Source: an uncultured Bacilli bacterium
GTDB lineage: Bacteria > Bacillota_I > Bacilli_A > RF39 > UBA660
NCBI GenBank assembly: GCA_947624115.1
Contig: CANQIS010000006.1
Span: 1-33,015, forward strand
Length of the DNA: 33,015 nucleotides
Reading direction: 5' to 3'
A program made the translations under genes and the position numbers. Under the pieces are notes generated by a model. The model made no database searches and was not told the DNA's origin. It worked only from the letters and a program-made list of their open reading frames with translations. The first letter of the stretch is position 1. Every line of letters begins with the position of its first letter. Below, piece after piece: positions 1 to 25,651 of the stretch.

Positions 1-109
1 TACCTGGTAGCACCTGCCAATAAATATCAGGATTACCGTTATGAGACTCAAGTTCACCTCGAACAAGTGGTCTAGGTCCTATGAAACTCATCTTTCCACC
101 TAATACATT
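1..109 (-). pseudogene. C-terminal part of an initiating sugar transferase (WcaJ/WbaP-like), partial at window edge and apparently interrupted near bp 109
   Basis: Minus-strand translation NVLGGKMSFIGPRPLVRGELESHNGNPDIYWQVLPG matches the NVLxGxMSFIGPRPL...GEL.SHNGN.xIY..V.PG signature. Upstream residues (HQTLKIIRFNEHQPT, preceded by a stop) lack the expected LDELPQ-type motif. Confidence 0.8.
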
Positions 110-115
110 TGTTGG

Positions 116-162
116 TTGGTGTTCATTGAAACGAATAATTTTTAAAGTTTGGTGTTAATTGA
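116..162. repeat. Short imperfect direct repeat TTGGTGTTCATTGA (116-129) / TTGGTGTTAATTGA (149-162)
   Basis: 14 bp, one mismatch, 33 bp apart, at the presumed element end. Confidence 0.45.
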
Positions 163-177
163 TATGTTTTTTTAAGA

Positions 178-208
178 CTACTCCAAAGTACCAAAGTAGT
201 TTGAGTAG
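178..208. repeat. Imperfect inverted repeat near presumed element end
   Basis: CTACTCCAAAGTA (178-190) versus reverse complement CTACTCAAACTA (197-208); contains tandem CCAAAGTA CCAAAGTA (183-198). Confidence 0.4.
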
Positions 209-325
209 ATACGTATTTTTGTCAAAAATTTTTTTATTAATTTTAAGAATTTTTTTGAGAAAATTTATCTTAAAATTAACAAAAAAAACAAGAAATCAAT
301 CTTGCTTTATTTTTACAATAGTTTA

Positions 326-2110
326 TTATTTTTCTATTTCTAATCTAACTCTTACTTTTTCTATCAAAGTTTTTCTCATTCTATTATTAACTTTTTTAAA
401 GGCAAAGAAATGTTGATTACTTTCAAAGTCAATTATTGTTGTATAAATGGAATCTTTTGTAGTATCTAAACTATTATTTTCAACAATCCTTTGGTCAGTA
501 ATATCACTTCTTGGACTGCTATTAAGCCCAGGTTTACAAATAAATCGAATTACATAAGGGTCCTTTTCACCTTTTTCATTAATTGCTCCAATTATTCCAT
601 AATCTACTAATGCCTCAAAAATATCTTCATCAAATTCTTTTTCCATATTTGAGCTATCTCTGACCATAAGTTCCGTCTTTATTTTCTTGATTCCTAATTC
701 CACTTTTGCCTCTTTTTTGATTATACTATTTAATTGTTCTTTTTTTATTTCTAATGCGTGAAGTTTTTGGTCAATTTCTTCATTTTTCTTACTATAACTA
801 TCATCATCAATATCTCCTGCAATTAATAAGTCTAAAATCTTATTTTTCTTATTTCTTAAAGTAGCTATATCTTTTTCGGTATTTTCTTTCATAGTAATTG
901 CTGTTCTATCTTTAGTTGCACTTTTTAAATTTTCTAAAAATTCTTCTAGCATTAATCCATCATTTGACGTTAGTAAAAAATATAATTGCATAAAACAGGA
1001 CTTAATAGTTTTTTCGTGCATAATTTTACTATTTGGACAAAGTTCTCTTGCCGAGCCTGTAACACTTAAACAATCCCAAGCAAGATTTTTTTTGTATAAT
1101 GATTTTTTAACATAAGCCTTTCCACAAAAGCCACATCTAAATCTACCACTAAATGTAAATTTATGTTGCATTTTTCTTCCAGTTTCTTTTGATACATTTC
1201 GTATACTTAAAATTTCTTGGACTTTATCAAAAGTTTCTCTATCAACAATAGGCTCATGATGATCCTTATATATAAATAAATCTTCTTGTCCCTTATTTTG
1301 TATTCTTTTATGAGTCAGTGGATTTTCTGTAATAGTCTTGCCTTGAACAATGTCGCCAACATATTTTTCGTTTCTTAAAATATTAGAAATAGTTGTACCA
1401 CCCCATTTATCTTTTCCCGTTGGTGACGGTACTTTCATTTCAGTTAAATTTCTTGCTATTGAAGTAGTACCAAATCCATCAATGTAAGACTTAAAAATTA
1501 GTCTTACTACTTCTGCCTCATTTTTTACTATTTTCATTTTCTTTTTCTTACTATCATATACGTATCCATAGCAATTATTGAAACCAACTAATTCGCCACG
1601 TTCCATTTTCATTTTAAATCCCATTCTAACTCTTGATGAAGTGTTTTCACTTTCTTGTTGAGCAACAGATGATAATACTGTTAAAAGTAATTCACCTGCC
1701 ATATCCATCGTATTAATTCCCTCTTCTTCAAAAATTACTGCCACTTTTTTTTCTCTTAATTTTCTAACGTAAGTTAAAGTATCTAGTGTATTTCTTGCAA
1801 ATCGTGAAATTGATTTTGTTAAAATTAGATTTATTTTTCCGTTAAGTGCGTCATTAATCATTCTTAAAAAATTATCTCTTTTTAAAGTCATTGTTCCACT
1901 AATACCCTCATCAGCATATACTTCAACAAAATTCCAATCGGGATTCTTGTAAATCTTTTCCATATAATAGCTTTGTTGAGAGGCAAAACTTGATTTTTGA
2001 TCTTCCATATCTGTTGATACTCTTGCGTATGCTGCTACATTTAATTTTTGTACTTTCCCAGTATTTTCATCTATCTTACCATTTTTTTTCCTAATTATTT
2101 CAATTTCCAT
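326..2110 (-). CDS. Large serine recombinase (intact-looking)
   Basis: Catalytic AAYARVST, EGISGT, KSISRFARNT motifs; recombinase domain; zinc-ribbon FRCGFCGKAY...C...C; coiled coil. 594 aa. Confidence 0.95.
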   Translation of the reverse strand: MEIEIIRKKNGKIDENTGKVQKLNVAAYARVSTDMEDQKSSFASQQSYYMEKIYKNPDWNFVEVYADEGISGTMTLKRDNFLRMINDALNGKINLILTKSISRFARNTLDTLTYVRKLREKKVAVIFEEEGINTMDMAGELLLTVLSSVAQQESENTSSRVRMGFKMKMERGELVGFNNCYGYVYDSKKKKMKIVKNEAEVVRLIFKSYIDGFGTTSIARNLTEMKVPSPTGKDKWGGTTISNILRNEKYVGDIVQGKTITENPLTHKRIQNKGQEDLFIYKDHHEPIVDRETFDKVQEILSIRNVSKETGRKMQHKFTFSGRFRCGFCGKAYVKKSLYKKNLAWDCLSVTGSARELCPNSKIMHEKTIKSCFMQLYFLLTSNDGLMLEEFLENLKSATKDRTAITMKENTEKDIATLRNKKNKILDLLIAGDIDDDSYSKKNEEIDQKLHALEIKKEQLNSIIKKEAKVELGIKKIKTELMVRDSSNMEKEFDEDIFEALVDYGIIGAINEKGEKDPYVIRFICKPGLNSSPRSDITDQRIVENNSLDTTKDSIYTTIIDFESNQHFFAFKKVNNRMRKTLIEKVRVRLEIEK

Positions 2111-2669: not shown

Positions 2670-2671
2670 AT

Positions 2672-4114
2672 TTACTTATCATCTCTTTCAAAACATATAG
2701 AAATTCTTACTTTATCAACTATTTTTGTAAGATTAACATCATTTACTCTTTCAAATACTAAAAAATATTGCTCACTAATAAAATTCAAAATTTCATAATA
2801 TTCATGTTCAAAAATATTTAATTTGGAATTACCATTGCATAAAAAGAAATCACTATTATTTCTCAATATAAACTTAAAAGAATATGGATCAAATACATTT
2901 TTATCTTTATTACCAACAATTACATATTTAATGATTTTATCAAATAACTGTCCATCAAAACTTTCTATGGATTCAGAATTTTTTAATATTCTATTTACGT
3001 ATAATAGATTATTATCTATTAACTTTTTTTGAATGTTATCATACTCGTTTAACATTAAGTTAAAAGTATTTACGAATGCTACCTCAAGAATGTCATCTCT
3101 TATCATTTTACTTCCACAATACCCATTTTTAGTAGTTTGACAAAATAATTTGTAACTTTTATTATCTTGATGAAATCTACTAAAAGAATTACCACAAAAG
3201 CCACAAAATACTTTTCTAGTAAAAATTGTTTCTTTTTGTAATTGCTTTGTTTGTATTATATTTGTATATTTTTTTAAATGTTTTTCTTGCACTTTATCAA
3301 AAGTATCTCTATCAATAATAGGCTCATGATGATTTTTAAGTAAATAAATATCACCTTTTTCTTCAGTAGCATTTTTTTGGGCTATGAAATTATTTGCTAT
3401 TTTTAATTTTCCAAATAGTATATCACCAACATATTTTTCATTTGTTAAAATTCTTATTATCGAATTATGACCCCATTTAGCTTGATTATTATAATTTAAA
3501 TAGCCATCTTTCTCTAATTTAGTAGCTATTTTTCTAGTAGCCATGCCATCTAGATATAGTTTAAAAATTAATCTAACTACTTTTGCCTGTTCCTCATTAA
3601 TAATATAATTTTTCTTTTCGACATCATAAATATAGCCAAAAAACGAAGTTCCATATGGCAAATATCCATTTAAAGATTTTTCACTTAAAGCATTTACAAT
3701 ATTTTTAGAATAATTTTTTGAAAAATCTTTTATAACATTTAATTGATTAGAAACAGTTTTTTTACGTGTTGAATATTTTTCTTTTACAAAATATATATCT
3801 ACATTATTATCACGTAAGAAAATCAAAAGACTATTTAAATCTAGTTCTTCTATATTTAATGATGAAACACTATCTATAACAAAAAGGTCAATATTTTTAT
3901 TAAAAATGTCATCAATTAATTTAGAAAAATTTTTTCTATTTTTTTCATAATTTTCTTCATTACAACTACTATATATTCCGATTAATTCCCAGTTCTTTTT
4001 TTGCTTTACAAATTTTTTTAGATTAGTTTTAGTTGATAAGTAATTTTCATCATTATACTTATTAGCTCTAAAAAATATCGCTGCTTTCTTTTCTATTCCA
4101 TATATATTACTCAT
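2672..4114 (-). CDS. Large serine recombinase paralog with degenerate catalytic residues
   Basis: AAIFFRANKYND replaces AAYxRVST; DSVSSLNIEE replaces KSISRFARNT; recombinase domain (WGHNSIIRILTNEKYVGDILFGK, KNHHEPIIDRDTFDKVQ) and zinc ribbon (VFCGFCG...C...C) kept. ORF listed to 4162, but ATG at 4114 follows GGAGG and the upstream stop, so it is the likely start. Confidence 0.9.
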   Translation of the reverse strand: MSNIYGIEKKAAIFFRANKYNDENYLSTKTNLKKFVKQKKNWELIGIYSSCNEENYEKNRKNFSKLIDDIFNKNIDLFVIDSVSSLNIEELDLNSLLIFLRDNNVDIYFVKEKYSTRKKTVSNQLNVIKDFSKNYSKNIVNALSEKSLNGYLPYGTSFFGYIYDVEKKNYIINEEQAKVVRLIFKLYLDGMATRKIATKLEKDGYLNYNNQAKWGHNSIIRILTNEKYVGDILFGKLKIANNFIAQKNATEEKGDIYLLKNHHEPIIDRDTFDKVQEKHLKKYTNIIQTKQLQKETIFTRKVFCGFCGNSFSRFHQDNKSYKLFCQTTKNGYCGSKMIRDDILEVAFVNTFNLMLNEYDNIQKKLIDNNLLYVNRILKNSESIESFDGQLFDKIIKYVIVGNKDKNVFDPYSFKFILRNNSDFFLCNGNSKLNIFEHEYYEILNFISEQYFLVFERVNDVNLTKIVDKVRISICFERDDK

Positions 4115-4116
4115 AT

Positions 4117-5652
4117 TTACACTACCTCCAAAGGATTGTATTCTACACTTACTGGTAGACAATCAATAATTACTAAATTTTTCTTATTATTAATTTTTTC
4201 ATAATAATGAAATGGGCTTTTATAAGTAAACTCTAAAATTTTATTATACTTACTGTTGACCACATTTTTTCTATTCGAGCCAGGATCAATAATAAGTTTC
4301 TTTTTCGTGCATAGAATATATCTAATGTTAAAAGGACCGTACTTATCATTTGAATTTTCATTTCCAATAATTATGTATTCAACTAGCTCTGAAAATACAT
4401 TCATATTAAATTCTTCTGTTAATTGATATTGTGATAATATTTTTTTTGTATGATTAAGATTTTGTAAAACATCTTCTTCATCATTTTTATTTAGTCTTAA
4501 TTTTAATTTTTTCATGACAATATAAGAAATTTCTTTTAACAAATCTTCACTTATTTGCTTTGATTTATCACATCTTGATTCGGTTTCGAAACTATGATTA
4601 CATATAATTTTTGACTTTTCTTTATTATTGTTAGAAAAATAATGATCGAAGAAACTGCCACAGTAACCACATATACACTTGCGCCTAAATGAAGACTGAT
4701 TTGACATTTCTGGTATTTTGTTTTTAATACTCAAACATGTATTAGCAGCATATCTTCGTTTTATTTCTTCTTGAGCCTTATTGAAAGTTTCTCTATCAAT
4801 AATAGGCTCATGATGATTTTTAATAAGATACATATCTTCTTGTCCCGTATTTCTAACAAGTTTACGAGAAAATATATTAATAGTTATGTATTTCCCCTGT
4901 AATAAATCACCAGTGTACTTTTCATTCATTAATAAATTTTTTATGTTAGTTATTTTAATGTTAAATTTATCTTTAATAATATTTGTTATTTGATTATAAT
5001 TTTTGCCCTCCAAAAAGAGTCTAAATATTTCTTTAACAACTATACTTTCTTTTTTGTTGACTACTATTTTTTTATTTTTAGCAACATATCTATATCCAAA
5101 ACAAACTGTTGTCCCAACTATTTCGCCTCTTTGTCGTTTCATTTTATATGCAAGTCGAACATGACTAGATAAATTTTCACTTTCTTGTTGAGCCACTGAT
5201 GCTAAAACAGTAATTATAAAATTACCAGTAGCACCAAGTGTGTAAATATTTTCTTCAATGAAGAATACTCCAACATCATTTTCTTTTAATAATCTTAACC
5301 ATTTGAGCAGGTCAACAGTATTTCTACAAAATCTAGAAATTGATTTTACTAAAATGAGGTCCATTTTATCATTAATTGCATCTTCCATCATTCTCATAAA
5401 ATTTCTTCTTTTACTTGTACTTGTTCCACTAATACCCTCATCAGAATATATATCTACAAATTCCCAGTTTCCATTTGAATTAATTAAATTGTAAAAATAT
5501 GAACATTGAGAATCATAGCTATGTTCTTGATCTTCATGTAGTGTACTTACCCTTACATAAGCAGCAACTCTACGTTTTCTTTGTTTTAAATTTGTTAATG
5601 AATTAATATTTACGTCTTCTTGAATTGTTTTTCTTTGAACAAATATATCCAT
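4117..5652 (-). CDS. Large serine recombinase (intact-looking)
   Basis: AAYVRVSTLHEDQ, EGISGTSTSKR, KSISRFCRNT, KNHHEPIIDRETF, zinc ribbon CICGYCG...C...C; AGGAGG upstream. Confidence 0.95.
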   Translation of the reverse strand: MDIFVQRKTIQEDVNINSLTNLKQRKRRVAAYVRVSTLHEDQEHSYDSQCSYFYNLINSNGNWEFVDIYSDEGISGTSTSKRRNFMRMMEDAINDKMDLILVKSISRFCRNTVDLLKWLRLLKENDVGVFFIEENIYTLGATGNFIITVLASVAQQESENLSSHVRLAYKMKRQRGEIVGTTVCFGYRYVAKNKKIVVNKKESIVVKEIFRLFLEGKNYNQITNIIKDKFNIKITNIKNLLMNEKYTGDLLQGKYITINIFSRKLVRNTGQEDMYLIKNHHEPIIDRETFNKAQEEIKRRYAANTCLSIKNKIPEMSNQSSFRRKCICGYCGSFFDHYFSNNNKEKSKIICNHSFETESRCDKSKQISEDLLKEISYIVMKKLKLRLNKNDEEDVLQNLNHTKKILSQYQLTEEFNMNVFSELVEYIIIGNENSNDKYGPFNIRYILCTKKKLIIDPGSNRKNVVNSKYNKILEFTYKSPFHYYEKINNKKNLVIIDCLPVSVEYNPLEVV

Positions 5653-6561: not shown

Positions 6562-7038
6562 CTATTTTAAAATTTCTTTTAATTTTTTTAATGCAATATT
6601 CAGAGTATATTGTACTGCTCTAATATCTACATTTTCTTCAGTTGCTATTTGTTGCTGTGTTTTATCTTCGAAATAATATTTTTTTATTCTTCTTTTTTGT
6701 ATTTCAGGTAGTTGTTCAATAGCAAGTTTTAATTCTTCAAAAGTTGCTTTACGTATTATTTCATCTTCAATGCTTGGAATTTTATCTTTAATTCTATTAT
6801 TTAAAGTTTCTTCAAATATTTCAGAATGTTCTATATGTCTGTCGTATTCGTTTAATTCTTTAATATCATCAAGCTCAAATCTATCAAATGATACAAATAT
6901 TTCTTTGCTAACTTCTACATCTTGAATAATTCCCTTATAGTCCTTAAAACTTACTATATAAATATTTTGTGTTTCAATATATTTCAAAGTATATGGATTA
7001 TCTTTTGATTTTCTTCTTTTTGGTCTTTTATTAATCAT
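6562..7038 (-). CDS. Sigma-70-family-like sigma factor (ICE type)
   Basis: C-terminal region-4-like helix-turn-helix: LKLAIEQLPEIQKRRIKKYYFEDKTQQQIATEENVDIRAVQYTLNIALKKLKEIL; AGGAGGAAAG-ATG. Confidence 0.85.
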   Translation of the reverse strand: MINKRPKRRKSKDNPYTLKYIETQNIYIVSFKDYKGIIQDVEVSKEIFVSFDRFELDDIKELNEYDRHIEHSEIFEETLNNRIKDKIPSIEDEIIRKATFEELKLAIEQLPEIQKRRIKKYYFEDKTQQQIATEENVDIRAVQYTLNIALKKLKEILK

Positions 7039-10163: not shown

Positions 10164-11627
10164 TTAAAATTTTGTATACTTATAAACTTTGTTACTTTCT
10201 AATTCTTTAGAAAATCTATCAACAGCATTTTGCCAAGTAGGAAGTTTTTCAAATCCAAATGTTTCTAATTTAGTTTTATTTAATTTAGAATTTTTAGGTC
10301 GATAAGCAATATTACTCATATCCTTACCAGTATAATATTCTTCTGTTGTTACAGGATTGATATGACAATCTTTATTATTCCTTTGCATAATATATTTTGC
10401 AAATTCTGCCCAAGAGCAATAACCCTCATTTGTTACATTATATGTTCCATATTTTTCTGAAAAAGCCATTTCTACTAAAACTTTAGCTAAATCAATAGTA
10501 TAAGTTGGACTACCTATTTGGTCGGATACAACATTTAATTCATCATGACTATTAGCTAGTTTAAGCATTGTCTTTACAAAGTTATTGCCATTTATTCCAA
10601 ATACCCAAGAAATTCTTGCTACAAAATGTTTAGGATTTCTTCTTACCTCTTCTTCCCCTAAATATTTAGTTTTACCATAAACACTTAAAGGATGAGGAAT
10701 ATCTTCTTCTATATAAGAATCATTCGTATCTTTTTCACCATCAAAAACATAATCTGTGGAAGTATAGATGACTTTTGCACCAATTTTTAATGAGGCATCA
10801 ACAATGTTTTTAGTTCCATTAACATTAATATTTTCACAATAACTTGGATCAACTTCGGCCTTATCTACTGCTGTATAAGCAGCACAATGAAAAATTACAT
10901 CAGGTTTATAAGTAGTAATAATATTCATAACTTGTTCTCTATTAGTAATATCCATCTCTTTACTAGATAAAGCTAATATATCATTTTCACCACGTTCATT
11001 CAATTCTCTAACTATATCATGACCAAGTTGTCCTGTAACTCCTGTTACTAGAAACTTTCTAGGCTTTCTATAAAATGATACGCCACTTTCTTTTAAAGAT
11101 GAACGATTACTATCTTTTGCTGATAATAAAGGACTTTCAATATTATATTCTTTAAAAGTTTCTTGCCATGGAATATTAACTTCTTTATCATCCCAAGCAA
11201 TGCCACCCTCCATTCTTGGTGCATATTTATTATCAACAAAATAATTAAAAACAGCATCATCTGTTAAAGCAACAAAGCCATGAGCAAAGCCTCTTGGAAC
11301 ATAAAGCATTTTTCCATTTTCTTGAGTTAGCTTTACTGATGTATATTTTCCGTATGTAGAAGAATCTTTTCTCATATCAACAACGACATCAAGTACTGCT
11401 CCGTTAGTACAATAAACTACTTTGGCTTGACAGTATGGATCTTTTTGAAAATGAAGACCTCTTACTGTTCCCTTAACACTTTTTGATTCACTTTTTTGAT
11501 AGAATCCTTTAAAACCTAGTTCTTCTAATTCTTCTTTTGTAATAGATGAAAAATATCCTCTATCGTCACCAAACCTTTTTGGCTCTAGTATGTAACAATC
11601 ATTTAAATTAGTTTCTATTTTGTTCAT
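10164..11627 (-). CDS. rmlCD: Fused dTDP-4-dehydrorhamnose 3,5-epimerase / dTDP-4-dehydrorhamnose reductase
   Basis: N-terminal RmlC cupin (FGDDRGYF...VRGLHFQKDP...VVDMRKDSSTYG...VPRGFAHGF), C-terminal RmlD (VTGVTGQLGHDIVREL...YTSTDYVFDG...YGKTKYLGEE). Confidence 0.93.
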   Translation of the reverse strand: MNKIETNLNDCYILEPKRFGDDRGYFSSITKEELEELGFKGFYQKSESKSVKGTVRGLHFQKDPYCQAKVVYCTNGAVLDVVVDMRKDSSTYGKYTSVKLTQENGKMLYVPRGFAHGFVALTDDAVFNYFVDNKYAPRMEGGIAWDDKEVNIPWQETFKEYNIESPLLSAKDSNRSSLKESGVSFYRKPRKFLVTGVTGQLGHDIVRELNERGENDILALSSKEMDITNREQVMNIITTYKPDVIFHCAAYTAVDKAEVDPSYCENINVNGTKNIVDASLKIGAKVIYTSTDYVFDGEKDTNDSYIEEDIPHPLSVYGKTKYLGEEEVRRNPKHFVARISWVFGINGNNFVKTMLKLANSHDELNVVSDQIGSPTYTIDLAKVLVEMAFSEKYGTYNVTNEGYCSWAEFAKYIMQRNNKDCHINPVTTEEYYTGKDMSNIAYRPKNSKLNKTKLETFGFEKLPTWQNAVDRFSKELESNKVYKYTKF

Positions 11628-12537
11628 AAACTTTCCTCTTTTCTTTAACCTTTACTAAATATTTTCCATATTGATTATTGTTAAAAGTTTCTGCCCTTTT
11701 AGAAAGTTCCTCATTAGATAGCCATTCATTTATGTACCCAATATATTCAGGACAGCATATAACTATATCTTTATTATTTTGAATTGTCTTTACCATATTT
11801 GAGGCATCAAGTAAACTTTCAAAAGTTCCTGTATCAAACCAAGTATAACCACTATCTAAAATTGTCGATTTTAATAATTCATTCTTTAAATAAATTTCAT
11901 TTAAGCAAGTGATTTCTAATTCCCCTCTCAAAGATGGCTCTATGCTTTTAGCAATTTTAGAAACACCTTTTGGATAAAAATATAATCCAGTAACTGCATA
12001 ATCACTTTTTGGATTAATAGGTTTTTCTTCAATGCTTAAAACATTGTTATATTCATCTACTTCCATAATTCCAAATCTTTCAGGATCTTTAACTTGATAT
12101 CCAAAAATGGTCGCATAGCCATTAACAGCATTATTTCTAGCTTTAGACAATTCTTTTTCTAATCCACTACCATAAAAAATATTATCACCTAAAATCATTG
12201 CACAAGGACTATTATCTATAAATTCTTCCCCTAAAATAAATGCCTGTGCCAATCCATCAGGACTTGGCTGAACGATATACGATAAATTAATACCAAATTG
12301 ACTTCCATCTTTTAATAATCTTTTAAAATAAGGTTGATCCTGTGGCGTTGTAATAATAAGAATATCACGAATTTCTGCTTGCATTAGAACCGATAACGGA
12401 TAAAAAATCATTGGCTTATCATATACTGGCAACAATTGCTTACTTACACCTTCTGTTATAGGATATAATCTTGATCCAGTTCCTCCTGCTAGTATAATTC
12501 CTTTAATATCACTTTTAGTTTTAGATTTTTCTGCCAT
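11608..12537 (-). CDS. rmlA: Glucose-1-phosphate thymidylyltransferase
   Basis: GIILAGGTGSRLYPITEGVSKQLLPVYDKPMIFYPLSVLM; FGYQVKDPERFGIMEVD; GYTWFDTGTFESLL. Confidence 0.95.
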   Translation of the reverse strand: MAEKSKTKSDIKGIILAGGTGSRLYPITEGVSKQLLPVYDKPMIFYPLSVLMQAEIRDILIITTPQDQPYFKRLLKDGSQFGINLSYIVQPSPDGLAQAFILGEEFIDNSPCAMILGDNIFYGSGLEKELSKARNNAVNGYATIFGYQVKDPERFGIMEVDEYNNVLSIEEKPINPKSDYAVTGLYFYPKGVSKIAKSIEPSLRGELEITCLNEIYLKNELLKSTILDSGYTWFDTGTFESLLDASNMVKTIQNNKDIVICCPEYIGYINEWLSNEELSKRAETFNNNQYGKYLVKVKEKRKVYEQNRN

Positions 12538-12651
12538 AAACTAACCTCTTTTCTTGTTTTCATAATTTTCATAATGAGCATGTTTAATATTGTCGCACGT
12601 ATGGCTTATATAATAACATAATAAATACAAAAACACAACTGCTAATTTTCG

Positions 12652-12680
12652 TTGACAATAGCTAAAGAGTAGTGTAAAAT
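12652..12680 (+). promoter_or_regulatory. Sigma-A-type promoter for the plus-strand acyltransferase
   Basis: TTGACA, 17 bp, TAAAAT, 75 bp upstream of the ATG at 12755. Confidence 0.7.
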
Positions 12681-12754
12681 AATGTCATCCATCAGAATAT
12701 ATAGTAATTGAAACTTCAACTTTGAAATTTTCAAAAAAAGTTAGGTCGTGAATT

Positions 12755-13384
12755 ATGAATAATTTTCTAAAAAAATGTATTAATTATATATATATATATA
12801 TATTTAAAGGAAATAAGATTGTTAAAACGGGAAACAATAATATAATTGATATAAATAAAAAATGCATTAAGATTAAAAATACAAATATAAAAATACAAGG
12901 AAGTAATAACAAAATAATATTTGGCGAAAATTGTAATATTACAGGATTACATATCCTTATTATTGGAAATAATAATAGAATTTTAATTGGAAATAATGTT
13001 ACTATTAATGCGTCAAAATTACAACCAACTATCATTAATGCCATAGGTGGAAAAACAATCAGTATTGGTGATAATTCTCTACTTTCTAATAACATAGAAA
13101 TTCACACATCGGATTATCATGGAATATATAATGAAAATGGGAAAAGAATTAATCCTGATAAAGATATATATATAGGCAAAAAAGTATGGATTTGTCTAGG
13201 ATGCAAGATATTAAAAGGAGCTTATATAGGAGATGGGTGCGTACTTGGTGCTGGATCAATTATATCAAAAAAATTTGATGTCGTTAATTGTATTTTAGCT
13301 GGTAATCCAACTAAAATAATAAAAGAAAAAATTCAATGGCAAAAGGAAAGAAAAGATTCAATTAAAATTTCTAATACAAATTAA
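12755..13384 (+). CDS. Left-handed beta-helix (hexapeptide) O-acyltransferase
   Basis: Hexapeptide repeats and typical C-terminal motif IGKKVWICLGCKILKGAYIGDGCVLGAGSIISKKF...ILAGNPTKIIKEKI. Confidence 0.88.
   Translation: MNNFLKKCINYIYIYIFKGNKIVKTGNNNIIDINKKCIKIKNTNIKIQGSNNKIIFGENCNITGLHILIIGNNNRILIGNNVTINASKLQPTIINAIGGKTISIGDNSLLSNNIEIHTSDYHGIYNENGKRINPDKDIYIGKKVWICLGCKILKGAYIGDGCVLGAGSIISKKFDVVNCILAGNPTKIIKEKIQWQKERKDSIKISNTN
12785..12803 (+). repeat. Intragenic (TA)9 T dinucleotide tract
   Basis: TATATATATATATATATAT encoding YIYIYI near the N-terminus of the acyltransferase. Confidence 0.95.
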
Positions 13385-13432
13385 AATTACAAGTTACTGT
13401 AAATCTAATAGTGCTAACTTGTAATTTTTTTT
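13384..13432. terminator. Bidirectional rho-independent terminator between convergent genes
   Basis: 13-bp perfect stem AAATTACAAGTTA (13384-13396) / TAACTTGTAATTT (13415-13427), then T-run. Confidence 0.85.
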
Positions 13433-14817
13433 CTTAAAAATATCTTTTTTAGATAATCCCAATGTAATATTATAATAAAAACAAATATAGTTACTTGAAT
13501 CAAATAGCAAATATTTAATGTAGCTAGAATTGATTGTAGAATTAGTAAGGCAATAGCCAAAATATGATTTTTCCACTTGACTTTCATTTTTATAAACTCT
13601 TGTAAACTTGTCGTTCTTAAAATCCACATAATACAATAACCAATCATAGTTGCCAAAGCAGCTCCAATAGCCCCAAATAAATATATAAATATAAAATTAC
13701 AAATAGTATTTACAACAGCACCAATTATCGTAGTTTTAGTAACTTCTTTTGTCTTTTTAGTAGCGGCAAACAAAGAACCTTCAAATTGCGATATCCCATT
13801 AAAAATGGTGCCAACTAATAAAAAAGGAACACATTTATATGCACTAAAAAAATCTTTAGAATACAAGAACATAGCAATTGGAACATTAAACAACATTATT
13901 ATAGAACACACAGCAACGGAAAGTAAACTATATATTGTGTAATTATTTCCAATAAAACCATCTTTATCTTTACTATCAAATTCAGCAATCGCAGAAATAG
14001 ACCAAGCATTGTAAAAAATACTTTGAAAAGTAGTTAATATTATCGGTATTTTACAAGAAATTGCATAAACACCATTGACAGCCATACCAGAAATCCATAA
14101 CAAGATATATCTATCACTTGCATTATTTACCCACCAAGAGAGAGAATTTGCTATTAATGGAAAACTATACTTAATCATAGGTTTAGATAAATTATTATAT
14201 TTTCTAATATGAAAATCTTTATATATTTTTCCAATAAAAAATTGATAATTAAACTGAAATAATAGACCTGCTATAATTCCAATCATATATCCATTTATAC
14301 CCATATTAAAAACGACTAAACATAATATATTAGTTAAACATGTTATTAATGTTGATATTATCCCACTTACAACTATAACTTTAGCCTCATTTTTAGCTTT
14401 AAAATATACATTGAAACAATTATTAAAAGCATTAAAGAAAAAGGAAAAAAATAAAAATAACCAATATATTAAACTAAATTTGATAATGCCTGATACACTA
14501 ACAAAAATTATACCAATAATGAAAATGAGTGTACTTTTTAATATAATATTAATTGTTGTAGATAATACATCTTTTTTCTCATATTGATTATCCATACCAA
14601 AACGAAGTGTCGCATCTTGTATACTTAATAATAATATAGGCATTAATAATTGAGCTGTTGATTGTAGTAAGTCAACAGTTCCATAATCTGATGTACTTAA
14701 TATCGATGTATACAATGGAAGTAATAAAAATGATATAATCTTTGATCCAAAACTTCCTAATGTAAATATTCCTATGTTTTTAATTAATGACTTATACTTT
14801 TTTTTCACAAAAAACAC
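13414..14817 (-). CDS. wzx: Polysaccharide flippase (Wzx / MVF-type)
   Basis: Multi-pass protein; NIGIFTLGSFGSKIISFLLLPLYTSILSTSDYGTVDLLQ, SNSLSWWVNNASDRYILLWISG. Confidence 0.9.
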   Translation of the reverse strand: MFFVKKKYKSLIKNIGIFTLGSFGSKIISFLLLPLYTSILSTSDYGTVDLLQSTAQLLMPILLLSIQDATLRFGMDNQYEKKDVLSTTINIILKSTLIFIIGIIFVSVSGIIKFSLIYWLFLFFSFFFNAFNNCFNVYFKAKNEAKVIVVSGIISTLITCLTNILCLVVFNMGINGYMIGIIAGLLFQFNYQFFIGKIYKDFHIRKYNNLSKPMIKYSFPLIANSLSWWVNNASDRYILLWISGMAVNGVYAISCKIPIILTTFQSIFYNAWSISAIAEFDSKDKDGFIGNNYTIYSLLSVAVCSIIMLFNVPIAMFLYSKDFFSAYKCVPFLLVGTIFNGISQFEGSLFAATKKTKEVTKTTIIGAVVNTICNFIFIYLFGAIGAALATMIGYCIMWILRTTSLQEFIKMKVKWKNHILAIALLILQSILATLNICYLIQVTIFVFIIILHWDYLKKIFLRKKITS

Positions 14818-14822
14818 CTCGA

Positions 14823-15671
14823 CTAATATTTCATATCATCATAAGTAATTATACCTGCTCCACCAGTTATATATACCGTGTCACCAACAATCATTTTTCC
14901 CATATTACTTACAAGCATAACTGCAACATTGGCAACTTCTTCGGGTGCTACAAATCTTTTTGTAATTGTATTTTCATTATGCAAATCATTAAAGTCATCT
15001 TGCTTTAACATAGGTGTTGAAGTTGATCCTGGAGCCAGTCCGTTGACAATTATTCCGTATGGCAATAATTTTTTAGCCATACCTAAGGTAAGTGCACGTT
15101 CACCCCATTTAGAAATAATGTATGGAGAAATAGCAGGTCTTAAAGCTGAAGAAGAAGTTATATTTAAGATATTACCCTCAATTTTATTTTCAAGCATATA
15201 CTTTGTTATAACTTGTGACATAAAATACATACCTTTTAAATTTGTATCTAATATTTTATCATATTCTTCTTCAGTAGTATTTGGAAATGATGTCCCACCA
15301 TTTACTCCGGCATTGTTAACAAATATATCTATTTTTTTGTCTATACTTTCGCTTATTGACAAAAAATCTTTTTCCAAGCTACTTACTTTAAAAATATCTA
15401 ATTTAGCTATAATTACTTTACTATCTTCACATCTGCAAGTTGCTATTAATTTTTTCTTGGCTTGTTCTAGTTTTTCATTATTTCTCCCTGTTATAATAAC
15501 TGTTGCACCATTTTTTACAAATGATTCAGCAATAGAATATCCAATACCAGAAGAACCACCTGTAATAAATGCACATCTGCCAGTTAAGTAATTACCTTCT
15601 AATGTAGGTATTAAAATTTTTTCTTTTTTTACCCTTACCATTTTCTTTAATAACCTTTTAATCTTAGCCAT
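14823..15671 (-). CDS. Short-chain dehydrogenase/reductase
   Basis: TGGSSGIGYSIAESFVKNGATVIITGR, NNAGVNG, YIISKWG, LAPGSTSTPM. Confidence 0.9.
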   Translation of the reverse strand: MAKIKRLLKKMVRVKKEKILIPTLEGNYLTGRCAFITGGSSGIGYSIAESFVKNGATVIITGRNNEKLEQAKKKLIATCRCEDSKVIIAKLDIFKVSSLEKDFLSISESIDKKIDIFVNNAGVNGGTSFPNTTEEEYDKILDTNLKGMYFMSQVITKYMLENKIEGNILNITSSSALRPAISPYIISKWGERALTLGMAKKLLPYGIIVNGLAPGSTSTPMLKQDDFNDLHNENTITKRFVAPEEVANVAVMLVSNMGKMIVGDTVYITGGAGIITYDDMKY

Positions 15672-15690
15672 ACATTTAACCTCTTTTACT

Positions 15691-17403
15691 TTACCTATTT
15701 TTTAGTTTATTAATTGTTTTCTCTCCTATTATTTTCTTTATTGAATTTTTTAATTCCTTTTTTAAATATCCATTATTTTTTAAATTTTTATTAATTAATA
15801 ATTGATATGCTTTACTTTCATCAATATCACTAACAAAAGTTTCTAAAATAATTGGCTTATCGGATTTATTTAAAAATGTTTTGCTAGCATTCATAAATTC
15901 ATTCATATTATTCGCACTTAAATATATAAAGCCACAGGTTTCTGCCCATCCTTTAGCATTTTTAAAATGATTTGCAGCTGCAATATAATCATCTATTTCT
16001 TTTTTATCTTCGCCATGAAGTTTAAATTCGATTCCACCATTATTATTGATTAGTAAAATACGTAGATTATTTTTGATATGTCTTATTCCTAGTGAATTTA
16101 AATCATAGAAAAAAGCTAAATCACCAATTACCATAAATGATAATTCATTTGATATAACACTTTGTCCAATCAAAGTTGACATACCACCATCTATCCCAAA
16201 AGCACCAACATTTGAAAAACATTGAATCGTAGGATTTAAATAAAACAAATTCCAAATTCTTAGACTATTTAATATAGAAAATTGTATTATAGAGTTCATA
16301 GGAATTTTGTCATGTAAATATTGTGCTATACTTACGTTAGAAAATGGAACACTAATATCATTTTTCAATGAAGAGGTTTCTTTTGACCATAATTCAAAAT
16401 AATCATGATTAACATTATTTTCTTCAACACGTAAAAAGAAATTCTCAACTCTACCTTTAAAAACTTTTGTTAACTTATCATATGTATCTACAACTTTTCC
16501 ATCAACAGAAACTATCCAGTGTTCTACTTCTGCAAGAGAAGTTTTTGATAATTTATTATATAATGGATAATCACCAGTTTGTCCACCGATAGTAATAAAA
16601 ATATCAGGCTTAAGTCTATCAAATTCATCATCTGTAATAATAGATAATAATAAATTACCATTAACTGAATAATTATTAGAAAAATTAGAAAGATGATTAA
16701 CATAAACAACTGAATTAGTATTATTACAAAAATAATTTATTGCATTTTTCTCTTTCTCATTAAAAGGAAGATGTTCACCAATAACAATTAGTATTTTTTT
16801 GCTAGACAAATCTATTTTTTGCATATCTTCTATTGAAATTCTAATTATAGATTTATTTTTAGGCTCAACATTGTCTATCTTAAAATCTAACCATGGAACA
16901 CATAATTGTACTGGCCCTAATCCATCATTAGATAACTCTAAAATCGCGTCATTTATTACTCTTCTACTATGATAAATATCATTGATATCACTTATAAATG
17001 GCAATTCAAATGATTTTTTTACACTATCATTAGGAAGTGATGTTTGATCTGGAGCTTGCATATATCCTTGATATTTAAATCTAGGGTGCTTTTCCATAGT
17101 TATTGCTAAAAGTGGCACTCCTTTATAATATGCTTCAGTTAAACCTGGTATATAATTTCGTGTGGCTTGAGCACTGGTACATACCATTGCAACAGGTCTA
17201 CCAGTTTGTAAATAAATTCCTATTGCAAAATAAACAGCACTTCTTTCATCAACAATTGAATAACATTTAAAATACTCATCATTTTGAAGTAATTTTACTA
17301 ACTGTACGTTTGTACCACCTGGATTGATAACAATAGTATCTATTTTATGTATTTTTAATAATTCTACTATCATTTGAACATTTTTAATATTATTTATATT
17401 CAT
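15691..17403 (-). CDS. ThDP-dependent enzyme, MenD/acetolactate-synthase-like
   Basis: VDERSAVYFAIGIYLQTGRPVAMVCTSAQATRNYIPGLTEAYYKGVPLLAIT; NVGAFGIDGGMSTLIGQS; VIGDLAFFYDLNSLGI...INNNGG. Confidence 0.85.
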   Translation of the reverse strand: MNINNIKNVQMIVELLKIHKIDTIVINPGGTNVQLVKLLQNDEYFKCYSIVDERSAVYFAIGIYLQTGRPVAMVCTSAQATRNYIPGLTEAYYKGVPLLAITMEKHPRFKYQGYMQAPDQTSLPNDSVKKSFELPFISDINDIYHSRRVINDAILELSNDGLGPVQLCVPWLDFKIDNVEPKNKSIIRISIEDMQKIDLSSKKILIVIGEHLPFNEKEKNAINYFCNNTNSVVYVNHLSNFSNNYSVNGNLLLSIITDDEFDRLKPDIFITIGGQTGDYPLYNKLSKTSLAEVEHWIVSVDGKVVDTYDKLTKVFKGRVENFFLRVEENNVNHDYFELWSKETSSLKNDISVPFSNVSIAQYLHDKIPMNSIIQFSILNSLRIWNLFYLNPTIQCFSNVGAFGIDGGMSTLIGQSVISNELSFMVIGDLAFFYDLNSLGIRHIKNNLRILLINNNGGIEFKLHGEDKKEIDDYIAAANHFKNAKGWAETCGFIYLSANNMNEFMNASKTFLNKSDKPIILETFVSDIDESKAYQLLINKNLKNNGYLKKELKNSIKKIIGEKTINKLKNR

Positions 17404-17411
17404 AAATCATA

Positions 17412-18563
17412 TCACCTATTTTCTATAACTTTTTCTAAACTTATTATAAAACTTTTCTTTTTATCCTCTATCAATTTTTGAGATTTCTTTTGTGTTTCTA
17501 AAAGTTCTTTCCTATTTTCAATATATTGTAATGTTTTATTAAAAGCCGACTCACTATCTTCAGTTTTTCCATTGATAACATATTCATACTCTAAACTATT
17601 GAAAAGACCTTCAAATTTTCTACTATAAGAAACTGGTATAGTCAAAACTCCAGCAGAAAATGCTGCAATAGTTGAATGCATTCTAGATCCAATAAATATA
17701 TCCATATTAGAAATATAACTTTTAGCATCAATAGGGTTTGTAAAAACTGGAGCTAAAATACAATTTTCAATTTTCTTTGCTAACTTTTCACATATAGCAT
17801 AATCATCATCATGGGCATTTTCTGATAAGTCTATTACATGAGGAATTAAATAGACTTGATAATCAGGATTATTAGAAAAATATTTTATAACTTTTTCTAT
17901 ATAATTTTTATAATCTATGGTTAAATCAAACTGATTCAAAGAATTAAAGCCACCTTTATATAATAAACCTGATACATTAATTCCTACTTTTATTTTTTTA
18001 GATTCTATATTGTATTTTGAGCTGTCATAAGGAAGAAAAAATGCCATATCTGTAACTAATTCTGTATTATTTATTTTAAAGTCCTTTTCAACTATATCTA
18101 GTGACATTTTATCTCTACAATAAATTTTCTTTGCCTTTTTCAAAATTTTGATAGCAATTTTTCTTGAGTCATCTTCAAAAGGACCATACGTTTGAGGCAA
18201 TAGAATATAATTTTTACATAAAAATTCTGCTAACAATTTATTTTTAGCTAATCTCTTAAAATACTCTTTTGAATATATATCTGAGAAACTGTCACCCATA
18301 GTTGCGTCCAAAATAATATCGCAATCATGTAGGGCTCTTATATATGTTAGTCTTAAATCCTTTATTTTAGTTTTAACATTTATAAACTTAAAATTTGGGA
18401 ATCTTTCTTTAATGCTACCTAATCTAGTATTGCTAAAATTATATATTGTAGTATTCTCTTTTAAAGGTGAATAATCATTAAGAATAGAAATTATAGAATA
18501 AGTTAATGCCTCACAGCCCTTGTTTGGTGAAACAAATTCACATCCCATTAGACCTATTTTCAT
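17412..18563 (-). CDS. Polysaccharide pyruvyl transferase family protein
   Basis: NKGCEALTYSII, LLPQTYGPFEDDSRKIAIKILKKAKKIYCRDKMSLDIV, FIGSRMHSTIAAFSAGVLTIPVSYSRKFEGLF. Confidence 0.85.
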   Translation of the reverse strand: MKIGLMGCEFVSPNKGCEALTYSIISILNDYSPLKENTTIYNFSNTRLGSIKERFPNFKFINVKTKIKDLRLTYIRALHDCDIILDATMGDSFSDIYSKEYFKRLAKNKLLAEFLCKNYILLPQTYGPFEDDSRKIAIKILKKAKKIYCRDKMSLDIVEKDFKINNTELVTDMAFFLPYDSSKYNIESKKIKVGINVSGLLYKGGFNSLNQFDLTIDYKNYIEKVIKYFSNNPDYQVYLIPHVIDLSENAHDDDYAICEKLAKKIENCILAPVFTNPIDAKSYISNMDIFIGSRMHSTIAAFSAGVLTIPVSYSRKFEGLFNSLEYEYVINGKTEDSESAFNKTLQYIENRKELLETQKKSQKLIEDKKKSFIISLEKVIENR

Positions 18564-19620
18564 TTTCTTTCCACTCCTTAATCCATTCTAAATATTTATA
18601 ACCGTTTTGTTCCGTTGGCTCAAGCATCATACCCTCTGCCCATTCATTCCATGCATTAATAAAAACAAACTCATCGTTTTTTATTAAATTCATATATTTA
18701 ACAAAATTATCTTTTTTAACAGGGGTTATTATATAACCTCTATATGAATGTCTAGGTGTATTATCCCACTCAAAAAACAAACCTCTTATAACATTATTAT
18801 TAGATTCATAATTCTTGCACATCAATTTTAAAAGTTTATCACCATTATATATAATAATATTTTTTATATTAAAAGTGTGTGAAAGAGCTTTTAGTTTATT
18901 TATAGTTCTTTTTGGTATAGATAATAAAGTATGTTTATATTGGTCTAGTATATAGGTCGGTTCTCTTAAATGTATTAATCTACTATAATCAATATCATTA
19001 TTTATAAGGTTTTTCCAATTAGAAGTTTGATATGTTTCTATTATACAAATTCCATTAAATCCATTTTCTTTACACTTCTTATCAAAAAAACTAAACATTT
19101 CTTTTTTTTCTGCAAATTTGGAATTAAAAATTAATAATAATGGCATATTATTTCTTTTTTGATACCTAGAATCTTTAAAAAATGGTAGTAAGTAATTAAA
19201 ATGTTCTTCCCATTCTTTCTCTTTTCCATATTTTTGTTCTAATAAAAGTTCTTTAGAGCCTTCCCAAGAACGAAACCAACTATGATTTGCCCAACAAAAG
19301 AAAAATTCAATATCTATATCTTTGTTACTTAATAACATTTCAGCAGGTTTTTCTAATATTTTTTTACCAGTAAAATAGTAATGATAAAAAATAAGCCCAT
19401 CAACTTTGTATTTTTTTAATAAATTTTCTTGCCATTTTAAAGTATCAACATTATCCAAAGAATAATAATTGTTATTCAATGGAATTTTAGGTTGAATATG
19501 TTTTTTAAATAGTGGCTTTGCTTTTTTTACATTCACCCATTCTGTAAATCCTTTTCCCCACCATTCATCATTTTCTGGTATACAATGAAATTGTGGCAAA
19601 TAATATGCAAATATTTTCAT
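18538..19620 (-). CDS. WbsX-like glycosyltransferase / GH99-like protein
   Basis: YYLPQFHCIPENDEWWGKGFTEWVNVKKAKPLFKKHIQPKIP, FFFCWANHSWFRSWEG, INAWNEWAEGMMLEP. Confidence 0.92.
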   Translation of the reverse strand: MKIFAYYLPQFHCIPENDEWWGKGFTEWVNVKKAKPLFKKHIQPKIPLNNNYYSLDNVDTLKWQENLLKKYKVDGLIFYHYYFTGKKILEKPAEMLLSNKDIDIEFFFCWANHSWFRSWEGSKELLLEQKYGKEKEWEEHFNYLLPFFKDSRYQKRNNMPLLLIFNSKFAEKKEMFSFFDKKCKENGFNGICIIETYQTSNWKNLINNDIDYSRLIHLREPTYILDQYKHTLLSIPKRTINKLKALSHTFNIKNIIIYNGDKLLKLMCKNYESNNNVIRGLFFEWDNTPRHSYRGYIITPVKKDNFVKYMNLIKNDEFVFINAWNEWAEGMMLEPTEQNGYKYLEWIKEWKENENRSNGM

Positions 19621-19645
19621 TTGTTCTTACTCCTTTCAAATTTAC

Positions 19646-20761
19646 TTAATAATTTAATATACTCATATAAGGAACAGTAGCATCTGCGCCCAAATAAACA
19701 TAATACAAATACCAAAAGGCAAGCATAAAAACTATAACTAACGAGTTGACAATTATACGTGATGATGTACCTTTAAAACATTTAGATATTTGTGAAATAA
19801 CAAATATATTAAAATAGCCAAAATAATATGATAATCTTTGTGTATAAGGTACAAAAAAGGCTAAATGGTATAATAGAAATTCAATCCAAATAAAATATAT
19901 AAAATCGGTACAATTAGTATTTTTTTTCAACAATTTATATAATAAAACAGTTATAAGAAATATCATTGCTTTGAAAACGTAATCAATTAATATTACATTT
20001 CCAGTGCTATCAGAAGAGGCATAAAATGTATATCTAGAATCTATAATTCCATTGCTAGTAAGAAAAGATATTATTTGATTATAGTAGCACATAAATAGAA
20101 ATATAATTAAAAATGTTAACATGGAAATAACTATTTTTATAGTAGAGCTAATTTTAGAATTTGAAAGCATTATAATCAAAATTATTGGTATTCCAATAAT
20201 AACTGAATTATGGAACGATAATGCTAAAAGGAACAATAACAAAACCTTTACATATGATTTATCCTTTATATATTTATAGCTATATAAAACTATTGCTATG
20301 GAAATACTTTGACGTACCATATTTAATGATCTATTATAATAAAGTAGCAAAAATGCTAAATATGATAACCATAAAGGACATTTATATTCCTTCTCTGCAT
20401 AAGAACAAGCTTTAAAAACAAAAAATTGAATTATTAATTGTAATAAAAAATATAATATATTAATATTAGTTGTATATCTAGAAACTATATAATTTATAAA
20501 TGCATATCCAATTTCAACTGCCGTACGTGAATGCAAAAGAGAAAAATTATTTGAGACTAAAGCCGCAGAAAATACTCTTTTCACATAAAAGATAGTATCA
20601 GTGCCAATTCCCTCTGCACGTAATCCAGCTAAAATACTAGGAATAATTACTGTTAAAATGGCAAAAAGTATTTTTGGAAATTTTTTCTGTGATTTAGAGT
20701 ATAGAAATGCAAATATTGTACTTATAAAAAATATAAATAGATAAATCATCATAAATATCAA
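19646..20761 (-). CDS. EpsG-family (Wzy-like) polysaccharide polymerase
   Basis: Multi-pass; ILAGLRAEGIGTDTIFYVKRVF, NRSLNMVRQSISIAIVLYSYKYIKDKSYVKVLLLFLLALSFHNSVII. Confidence 0.85.
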   Translation of the reverse strand: MIFMMIYLFIFFISTIFAFLYSKSQKKFPKILFAILTVIIPSILAGLRAEGIGTDTIFYVKRVFSAALVSNNFSLLHSRTAVEIGYAFINYIVSRYTTNINILYFLLQLIIQFFVFKACSYAEKEYKCPLWLSYLAFLLLYYNRSLNMVRQSISIAIVLYSYKYIKDKSYVKVLLLFLLALSFHNSVIIGIPIILIIMLSNSKISSTIKIVISMLTFLIIFLFMCYYNQIISFLTSNGIIDSRYTFYASSDSTGNVILIDYVFKAMIFLITVLLYKLLKKNTNCTDFIYFIWIEFLLYHLAFFVPYTQRLSYYFGYFNIFVISQISKCFKGTSSRIIVNSLVIVFMLAFWYLYYVYLGADATVPYMSILNY

Positions 20762-21754
20762 CTACTTTCTTAATAATATATACAACTTCACTACACTATA
20801 ATACAAGTGCAACTTATTATCAATTAACAATTTAATTAAAAATAAATTTTTCTTTTTTTCATTTGTTTTACAAATTTTTACGTCTTTTAATTTTTTAATT
20901 TCTTCCATCTCATATAGATTTTCAACTATATGTTTAAATTCTCTAAATGAAACATTAGTTGTCTTAATTAAATACTTTAATTTCATATTTAATCTTGAAA
21001 ACACAGCACTTTTTACTTTTGATATACTTACATTATATTTCGCAAATGTTGAAAATACTTTTATGTTATCTTCACACTCTCTTATTCTGCTATTCAAGTT
21101 ACCACTTTTAGTAGCGCTATTTACATTAACATAATAGTTATACCCACAAGTATTAATATATCCCATTTTACCATGATTTTTATAGCACTTCCTAATAAAT
21201 ACTAAATCCTCGGCAAATTTTAAATTAATATCAAAGCGAGTATTTCCAACTGCATTTCTTCTTATAAAAAGTCCACCACCATAACAAAAAAAAGGTGATT
21301 CAATAAATAAAGAAAAATTATTATCATCTATAATTACTGAATTATTAGAATAAATATTAGTTTCAATTATTTCTTCATTCTCATTAACTATTTTATATCC
21401 ACTTCTAACTATATTTAAATTGTTTTTTTCTGCAAAATTATATAATAATTCAATATAGTTATTATCTAAATAATCATCATGATCTAAAAATAATATATAT
21501 TTTCCCTCTGCTTTAGAAATTCCCATATTTCTAGCACTACTAACGCCCCCATTAGCTTTATAGTAGTAACTGATATTCTTATACTTTTCTTTCAACTTTT
21601 TGCAAACAAATTCAGTATTATCCAAGGATCCATCATTTATTAATATAATTTGAAAATCATCAAATGATAATGTTTGATTCTTTATAGATTCAACACATCT
21701 TTCGATATATTTTGCTCCATTATATATAGGGATAATTATTGAAATCTTAATCAT
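20762..21754 (-). CDS. GT2 family glycosyltransferase
   Basis: ISIIIPIYNGAKYIERCVESIKNQTL...NDGSLDNTE...NGGVSSARNMGI...FLDHDD. Confidence 0.93.
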   Translation of the reverse strand: MIKISIIIPIYNGAKYIERCVESIKNQTLSFDDFQIILINDGSLDNTEFVCKKLKEKYKNISYYYKANGGVSSARNMGISKAEGKYILFLDHDDYLDNNYIELLYNFAEKNNLNIVRSGYKIVNENEEIIETNIYSNNSVIIDDNNFSLFIESPFFCYGGGLFIRRNAVGNTRFDINLKFAEDLVFIRKCYKNHGKMGYINTCGYNYYVNVNSATKSGNLNSRIRECEDNIKVFSTFAKYNVSISKVKSAVFSRLNMKLKYLIKTTNVSFREFKHIVENLYEMEEIKKLKDVKICKTNEKKKNLFLIKLLIDNKLHLYYSVVKLYILLRK

Positions 21755-22643
21755 AATTTCCCAAACTTTCCAATTCTTTTATAAGAATTTTTGCTGAATT
21801 ATAAGCATTCTTATATATGAATAAATTTTTTTCTCTTTTATTTCTTTTAACTGAATTTGTCGCAGAATCTTCATTATGAAATACTTCTAATCTTGGATTA
21901 TAAACTGATTTTAAGTTATATTTTTTTAATCTAACAGCTAATACTTTTTCTTCTAAATACATATATGTTCTAGAATCTAAACCATCAAATTTATCTATAT
22001 ATACCTTTGAGAAAATTAAAAATGCTCCATGCAAAACAATATTTTCTTGTCTTATATTTACATTTTGTTCGCTATATAGATTACTCTTTTTAGTTGGATT
22101 TAATTTTAAATACCATTTTTTAATTAAATCATATAGAAATTGGATATATAACAAATTACATATATACATAGCAATATATCTTTTCTTTCTAGCCTTTATT
22201 TCTTTTAATGTAATTAAATTTTGTTGAATTGGAGTAATTTTATTATTTGGAAGTAAGATTTTTGGACCTAAAACTGCAAATTTACTTTTTTCGTATTCTT
22301 TCTCAACCACTTTTAAAAAGTCATTATGTAAAAGATATGTATCATTATTTATCATAGCAATAAAATCAACATTATAATTTTCTTTAATATATCTAAATCC
22401 TAAATTATTTCCATTTGCAAAACCTAGATTTTTTTCACTAAATATCAATTTAACATTAACTTTATCTTTATAAATTTTTTTCAATTTTTCACCAGAATTA
22501 TTAGGCGAACAATTATCAACTATTACTATAATATAATCATCTTTTGCTACGTTTTTTTCTATGGAAGTAACACATTTTTTTGTATCATCAATTGTGTTAT
22601 AATGTAAAATCAAAAAAGCTATTTTCTTTGTAATTTTTTTCAT
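21747..22643 (-). CDS. GT2 family glycosyltransferase
   Basis: AFLILHYNTIDDTKKC...IVDNCSPNNSG...SEKNLGFANGNNLG...INNDT. Confidence 0.9.
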   Translation of the reverse strand: MKKITKKIAFLILHYNTIDDTKKCVTSIEKNVAKDDYIIVIVDNCSPNNSGEKLKKIYKDKVNVKLIFSEKNLGFANGNNLGFRYIKENYNVDFIAMINNDTYLLHNDFLKVVEKEYEKSKFAVLGPKILLPNNKITPIQQNLITLKEIKARKKRYIAMYICNLLYIQFLYDLIKKWYLKLNPTKKSNLYSEQNVNIRQENIVLHGAFLIFSKVYIDKFDGLDSRTYMYLEEKVLAVRLKKYNLKSVYNPRLEVFHNEDSATNSVKRNKREKNLFIYKNAYNSAKILIKELESLGNYD

Positions 22644-23856: not shown

Positions 23857-24686
23857 TCTAGCACCATCTTTTTCGAATCTTTTATTCCATTAAAGAATTT
23901 TTGAATTTTATTTCTTTTATCATTCTCATATAAGATTATACAAACTAATTTCCAAGCAAGATGAATATAATCATGCAAATATTCCTTAAAGCTTAACCTC
24001 TTACTATATTTTCTTAAATAATACTTAATATTTCTTGAAAAAAAATATATCCTATTGGCATTATGATTAGTAGGATATACTTGCCAAAATAGGAATTTTC
24101 TTGTACTTCTTTTTCCAATTTCATGGTCTAATACAGCATTTTTTATTCTCAAAATTTTCTTATTACTCAATGTTATTCTTTTACAATAATCAAAATCAAC
24201 ATAATCTATAAACATTTTTTCATCAAAGAAACCAATATCTTTACATACTTTCAAATTCATTAACGATCCTGAAGTAATACATCGGTTTACTTCTAATGTT
24301 TCTTCTTTTTGAATTGCTTGTTTATTACGATTTAAGTCATTAATTATAGGACAAACAATAGCTACATCCTTATTATTAACATACTTTAGCATTTCTTCAA
24401 TTGTTTTTTTCGATAATATAGAATCTTGATCCAAAGTTAATAAATAATCAACATTTTTTTCATAAGACAATTCTAATATTTGATTTAAAGCTTTTGCAAT
24501 TCCTAAATTAGATGAATTTGATTTAACAATTATATTACCCTTATGTATTTTTTTTATTAAATCAAAATTTTTTGAATTGTTATCTATTAAAAATATATAA
24601 TCAGCTATTTCTTCTATTTCTTTAATATTATTTTTCAAATTATCTATATTAGGATTATAAAGCACTATTCCAACCGAAAGTTTCAT
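23853..24686 (-). CDS. GT2 family glycosyltransferase (rhamnosyltransferase-like)
   Basis: VGIVLYNPNIDNLKNNI...IFLIDNNSKN...NLGIAKALNQ...LLTLDQDS. Confidence 0.9.
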   Translation of the reverse strand: MKLSVGIVLYNPNIDNLKNNIKEIEEIADYIFLIDNNSKNFDLIKKIHKGNIIVKSNSSNLGIAKALNQILELSYEKNVDYLLTLDQDSILSKKTIEEMLKYVNNKDVAIVCPIINDLNRNKQAIQKEETLEVNRCITSGSLMNLKVCKDIGFFDEKMFIDYVDFDYCKRITLSNKKILRIKNAVLDHEIGKRSTRKFLFWQVYPTNHNANRIYFFSRNIKYYLRKYSKRLSFKEYLHDYIHLAWKLVCIILYENDKRNKIQKFFNGIKDSKKMVLE

Positions 24687-25525: not shown

Positions 25526-25651
25526 ATTTTACAACTCCTAATTCTTATTTTTTCTGCATTCTTTTCAGCTTTTATCGTTAGATAATACCATTAATAATAA
25601 ACACTATTTTATATAACCATGCATAATTACATAAAATAATATAACAATACT

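Follow-up and report, generated by a model that had tools for sequence, protein, structure and literature searches.

A probable conjugative element with polysaccharide cargo at the break in a sugar-transferase gene of an uncultured Bacilli bacterium

Gene content of the window

The window (the whole stretch of DNA that we analyzed, 33,015 bp) is one complete contig (G000:C6) of an uncultured Bacilli MAG, which is fragmented into 127 contigs totaling 1.57 Mb at 90.7% completeness. At one edge lies a piece of a sugar-transferase gene, which runs off the contig 109 bp past a junction with different DNA; on the other side of that junction are four serine-recombinase ORFs in a row, a sigma-like gene, a polysaccharide cluster and part of a conjugation module, and the opposite edge of the contig falls inside the element (Table 1).

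Table 1. Features identified in the window and the evidence for each.
Feature	Coordinates	Strand	Evidence or remark
Sugar-transferase C-terminal piece (PF02397, GPRPLVRGELESHNGN subtype)	1..109	-	109/109 DNA identity to L070:6010-6118; PF02397 E 3.7e-5; continues off contig
Junction, element ...ACCAACCAACA / AATGTATTAGG... gene; proposed core AAT	105..115	-	Identity to intact allele ends here
Element end between junction and recombinase 1	110..325	.	20-bp inverted repeat at 229-287
Large serine recombinase 1, 594 aa, candidate integrase	326..2110	-	PF00239, PF07508; RVS motif, catalytic serine present
Serine recombinase 2, catalytic domain only, 189 aa	2100..2669	-	PF00239 only
Serine recombinase 3, RAN for RVS, DNA-binding part kept	2672..4162	-	PF07508, PF13408, weak PF00239; alignment
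Large serine recombinase 4, 511 aa, catalytic serine present	4117..5652	-	PF00239, PF07508; alignment
Sigma-70 region 4-like protein	6562..7038	-	PF08281, PF04545
Element polysaccharide cluster (rmlCD, rmlA, glycosyltransferases, flippase, others)	10164..26335	-	ORF names from sequence resemblance
Cargo sugar transferase, complete, GNRPYLPRE subtype	25652..26335	-	PF02397 E 1.2e-59
Conserved ORF beside VirB4	31118..32737	-	42% identical to G379 counterpart
VirB4-type conjugation ATPase, C-terminal 91 residues, cut by contig end	32740..33015	-	79% identical to G379 VirB4-like protein

The integrase of its own that an ICE carries is represented by recombinases 1 and 4, both of which have PF00239, PF07508 and the catalytic serine. 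Relatives of recombinase 1 occur at 46-53% identity in the genomes G379 and G184 and in others; no close relatives were detected in genome_contigs or viral_contigs, and the best match among phages and plasmids, at ~41% identity, is uninformative on the target. Between these two recombinases lie one that is truncated (recombinase 2) and one in which the catalytic serine is missing (recombinase 3), together spanning 2100-4162. In G379 and G184 both counterparts have their full length; judged from the sequences, the state of the two ORFs could reflect decay or a regulatory role. The sigma-like gene adjoins recombinases in G379 and G438 as well.

Within the polysaccharide cluster, a single ORF (12755-13384) is encoded on the plus strand, and the cluster holds the same place in G379. 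The conjugation module is represented in the window by the VirB4 end and the neighboring conserved ORF, and the contig ends before the position of the relaxase and coupling protein. The conserved ORF had no Pfam match; the VirB4-like protein of G379 matches PF19044 and PF12846.

The truncated gene and its intact counterpart

On the minus strand, the translation of bp 1-118 reads ...NEHQPT/NVLGGKMSFIGPRPLVRGELESHNGNPDIYWQVLPG. The fragment aligns to positions 93-131 of the PF02397 (Bac_transf) profile with 23.8 bits; its shortness puts this just under the curated cut-off of 27 bits. By scanning a set with a single genome for each species, we identified an intact allele (on L070, the same contig as G195:C3; CANRQG010000003.1) in the uncultured Bacilli MAG Lapin-017 bin44; it is a 228-aa ORF (...SSLDELMQVLNVLGGKMSFIGPRPLVRGELESHNGNPDIYWQVLPGITSWWASHGRS...) that scores 193.6 bits against the same profile, and in that genome it heads a polysaccharide operon. 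The window and the intact allele are identical over 109 of 109 bases and then diverge completely. In the protein encoded by the intact allele, the break falls at ...DELMQVL/NVLGGKMSF; at the DNA level, the intact allele reads GGTTTTG-AATGTATTAGG, whereas the window reads CCAACCAACA-AATGTATTAGG.

An earlier note on this DNA, made from the window alone, had read bp 1-109 as the C-terminus of a sugar transferase, had placed an element boundary at that point, and had remarked that the DELPQ-type segment expected upstream was missing and replaced by element sequence. The profile match and the intact allele bear out all three statements: the boundary at 109 is exact, and the missing segment is DELMQVL in the intact gene. 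The two subtypes of sugar transferase that it distinguished are also real, the fragment being of the GPRPLVRGELESHNGN type and the cargo gene of the GNRPYLPRE type. Its remark that the fragment is less AT-rich than its surroundings is accurate (41% GC in bp 1-109 versus 25% overall, with 0.15% of 109-bp stretches equally high) but uninformative on origin; the same 109 bp also have 41% GC inside the intact gene, and we rejected the contrast as a sign of origin.

Among the 389 family genomes, the second-closest copy of the fragment is 80% identical. Because identity to the intact gene is 109/109 and the runner-up is at 80%, the comparison indicates that the fragment is a recently broken gene and not a decayed one. 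An old, decayed fragment with no relation to the element boundary, an alternative that the earlier note had itself raised, would account for the shortness of the piece and for nothing else in these data; given the full identity to an intact gene, we regard it as barely credible.

The N-terminal half of the gene was found neither by the PF02397 profile nor by intact-gene DNA in the source MAG (90.7% complete). A DNA search with the full gene against the 389 family genomes detected no separate N-terminal piece and no other split copy, and the only high-identity match was the intact gene in G195. In that search many matches ended near query position 460; we considered these as possible breaks but read them as ordinary loss of similarity. 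Two further candidates were set aside: contig G000:C49 as the continuation of the interrupted operon, as its glycosyltransferase is too unlike that of G195, and the fragment as a silent cassette for the cargo transferase, for which we found no evidence.

Beside the two transferase genes we observed a shared 28-bp sequence (27/28 identical; 44 bp at 91% by blastn), located at 26879-26906 in the window and at ~15006-15048 in G195:C3. It sits upstream of the cargo sugar transferase in the former and of the intact target gene in the latter, and from its placement it is possibly a leader or regulator site.

The flanking fragment is 100% identical to G195 despite that genome belonging to another genus (g181). 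Based on rpoB DNA, the source MAG and G195 are 75% identical, compared with 89% between G195 and G438, both of genus g181. The cargo transferase and its leader have 84% DNA identity to G438; for rmlCD, the matches in G195 and G378 (both g181) are at 84-87%, and the three genomes from the genus of the MAG itself gave none at that threshold. By sequence similarity, then, the flank and much of the cargo appear to point to g181 and not to the genus of the MAG, and because of this we suspect that the contig may be misbinned from a g181 strain or that the element and flank may have been transferred recently. If the contig is misbinned, the occupied allele (window) and the empty allele (G195) may share one species, which would make the insertion reading stronger. 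The earlier note had placed the element inside a resident sugar-transferase gene; an element end does lie in such a gene, with an intact allele in G195, but the match of the flank to another genus leaves the word "resident" uncertain.

The junction and related elements

The end of the recombinase 1 gene is 216 bp from the junction, and the inverted repeat in this interval is probably a terminator. The terminal 24 bp of the element had no match in viral_contigs. A short motif, CA[AC]CAAAT, is present at the junction of the window and recurs in G184 and G379, where it lies 11-12 bases inside the open frame. With one mismatch allowed, ~7% of random 60-bp pieces of either contig contain it; the recurrence is suggestive of a core around AAT, as post hoc support.

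More of the layout can be seen in a relative on contig G379:C35, in which a relaxase (PF03432), a coupling protein (PF02534), a VirB4-like ATPase, the conserved ORF, a polysaccharide cluster, a sigma-like gene and four full-length recombinases follow one another; the order of modules is the same in the window. The recombinase end of this segment runs into a 997-aa ORF. Aligned to an intact 1491-aa ORF of G215, the 997-aa ORF is without the ~56 first residues of its homolog, including the start with a hydrophobic leader. Since the genes at this position are broken in both the window and G379, the recombinase end cuts a gene in both elements. The two differ in the gene that is cut, a surface-protein gene in G379 and a sugar-transferase gene in the window, and in their recombinases, all four of which are full length in G379, whereas in the window number 2 is truncated and number 3 lacks the catalytic serine.

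In G184, four recombinases lie beside polysaccharide genes, no conjugation genes were seen between, and the recombinases abut an ORF that by eye resembles a fusion of two gene pieces. At this recombinase end (G184:C2:104003-104488), the ORF seems to be a surface-protein piece fused to a flippase piece. Also by eye, a sugar transferase at G184:C2:74939-76282 is truncated after GLTGFW, and a second, complete one follows directly.

These relatives bear on whether the element simply inserted or whether recombination at two different sites exchanged resident polysaccharide genes for the element, which would leave flanks from different genes. The genes at the two ends of the segment do differ in both genomes: in G379, a broken glycosyltransferase start just after a sugar-transferase gene lies on the left and the truncated surface-protein gene on the right, and the remainder of that glycosyltransferase was not found when searched for; in G184, the flanks are the truncated sugar transferase and the fused ORF. 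Because of the differing flanks and the missing glycosyltransferase part, simple insertion is an incomplete account of G379 and G184, where later deletion or replacement is likely. Simple insertion followed by an adjacent deletion yields the same picture in these relatives, however, and the contig of the window covers one flank only; as an explanation of the window, we consider a two-site exchange unlikely.

The same comparisons weigh on the possibility of an assembly artifact in which 109 bp from some unrelated gene were attached to the element end. Such a chimera would fit a gene piece that is just 109 bp long, stands at a contig edge, where chimeric joins can occur, and is identical to the genome of another genus. 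The break, however, lies exactly at the recombinase-side end of the element, with a motif seen near the G379 and G184 breaks, and the relatives also cut genes at their recombinase end; we judge a chimera very improbable.

Two other recombinase-linked sites were noted. Contig G438:C4 (L071) contains a perfect 17-bp inverted repeat (ACTGGCTGTATAGCCAG) at L071:5273-5289 and 5514-5530, with 224 bp between the arms, just upstream of an operon-heading sugar-transferase gene and beside three serine-recombinase genes. Near other polysaccharide operons there are similar sites of 16 bp, with further copies in G438:C4 and G195:C3, and from this arrangement the repeat looks like an invertible-promoter phase-variation system. 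At G000:C35:10115-12921, a serine-recombinase gene abuts a penicillin-binding-protein-like ORF that by eye is cut after TYEPGSTFKI, which is a possible second insertion inside a conserved gene.

Integration of the element and comparison with known systems

We favor the reading, with a probability of roughly 0.75, that an ICE with polysaccharide cargo integrated through a large serine recombinase at an AAT-centered site and so split the sugar-transferase gene. The element would have entered the leading gene of a second polysaccharide operon, within its coding sequence, by the action of one large serine recombinase, most likely number 1, whose gene ends nearest the junction, at a short site with a putative AAT core. 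The N-terminal half would then lie at the other end of the element, beyond the contig, and the operon headed by the broken gene would be silenced. Integration is supported by the abrupt end of the 109/109 identity, the adjacent recombinases, the layout and beheaded gene of G379, the recurrent CA[AC]CAAAT motif, and a review that describes intragenic sites as common for serine-recombinase elements (PMC5704250); the conjugative nature is further supported by the relaxase, coupling protein and VirB4 of G379 and by the VirB4 end and neighboring ORF of the window. Counting against it are the failure to find the N-terminal half in the MAG or the 389 family genomes, a contig that holds one element end, the short flank at a contig edge, the post hoc nature of the core motif, and, in G379 and G184, a different flanking gene at each end of the segment.

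The earlier note had also proposed that the insertion disables the first step of polysaccharide synthesis while the element supplies another. The cargo does include a different sugar transferase; however, loss of the whole first step is too strong a claim because the MAG has four other Bac_transf genes besides the fragment (three on other contigs, the fourth being the cargo gene) and G195 has at least three. What the insertion would break is a single operon, with other initiating transferases remaining.

The element may be able to excise and thereby restore the gene, as two of the recombinases look catalytically intact. By analogy with SPbeta in spsM, the element could even represent a regulated off-state, with precise excision returning the operon to use. 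This precedent (PMC4191935), the two intact-looking recombinases and the intact allele in another genome are consistent with such a reversible switch, and the end of the contig so near the junction, 109 bp beyond it, would be compatible with an assembly that branched into an occupied and an empty allele. The N-terminal half was not found, however, no directionality factor or regulation was identified, and the other sugar transferases blur a simple on/off role; we think a switch of this kind is doubtful. A wider proposal, under which gut Bacilli harbor a family of conjugative elements that exchange surface polysaccharides by integrating into early operon genes, silencing them, bringing a full replacement cluster and, on excision, restoring the old coat, seems quite unlikely to hold in full.

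If integration of the ICE into the sugar-transferase gene is correct, a single transfer breaks one surface-polysaccharide operon and delivers another. Gut bacteria might in this way acquire a new coat in one step, which would bear on phage and immune recognition, and the reading names a specific empty and occupied site that can be tested by PCR. In the open-licence literature, we found no relevant report joining serine integrase, attB and sugar transferase.

Integration within genes is common among serine-recombinase IMEs, and the identical core at which Tn4451 recombines is 2 bp long (reviewed in PMC5704250; see also PMC7168690). The window element would be a good example of intragenic integration by a serine recombinase; it resembles Tn4451 and the IMEs and ICEs found in genes such as rumA (PMC5704250, PMC7168690) in its serine recombinase, its intragenic position and its very short proposed core. 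It differs from them in its polysaccharide cargo, its sugar-transferase target and its four recombinase ORFs in a row, one without the catalytic serine and one truncated; the cargo and the array are unusual. The closest precedent is SPbeta, likewise a large-serine-recombinase element that splits a polysaccharide-synthesis gene: it interrupts spsM of Bacillus subtilis and leaves precisely during sporulation through SprA, a large serine recombinase, and SprB (PMC4191935). SPbeta is a phage for which both gene halves are known and excision by SprA and SprB is proven, whereas the window element, with one gene half seen, appears to be conjugative and brings polysaccharide cargo of its own.
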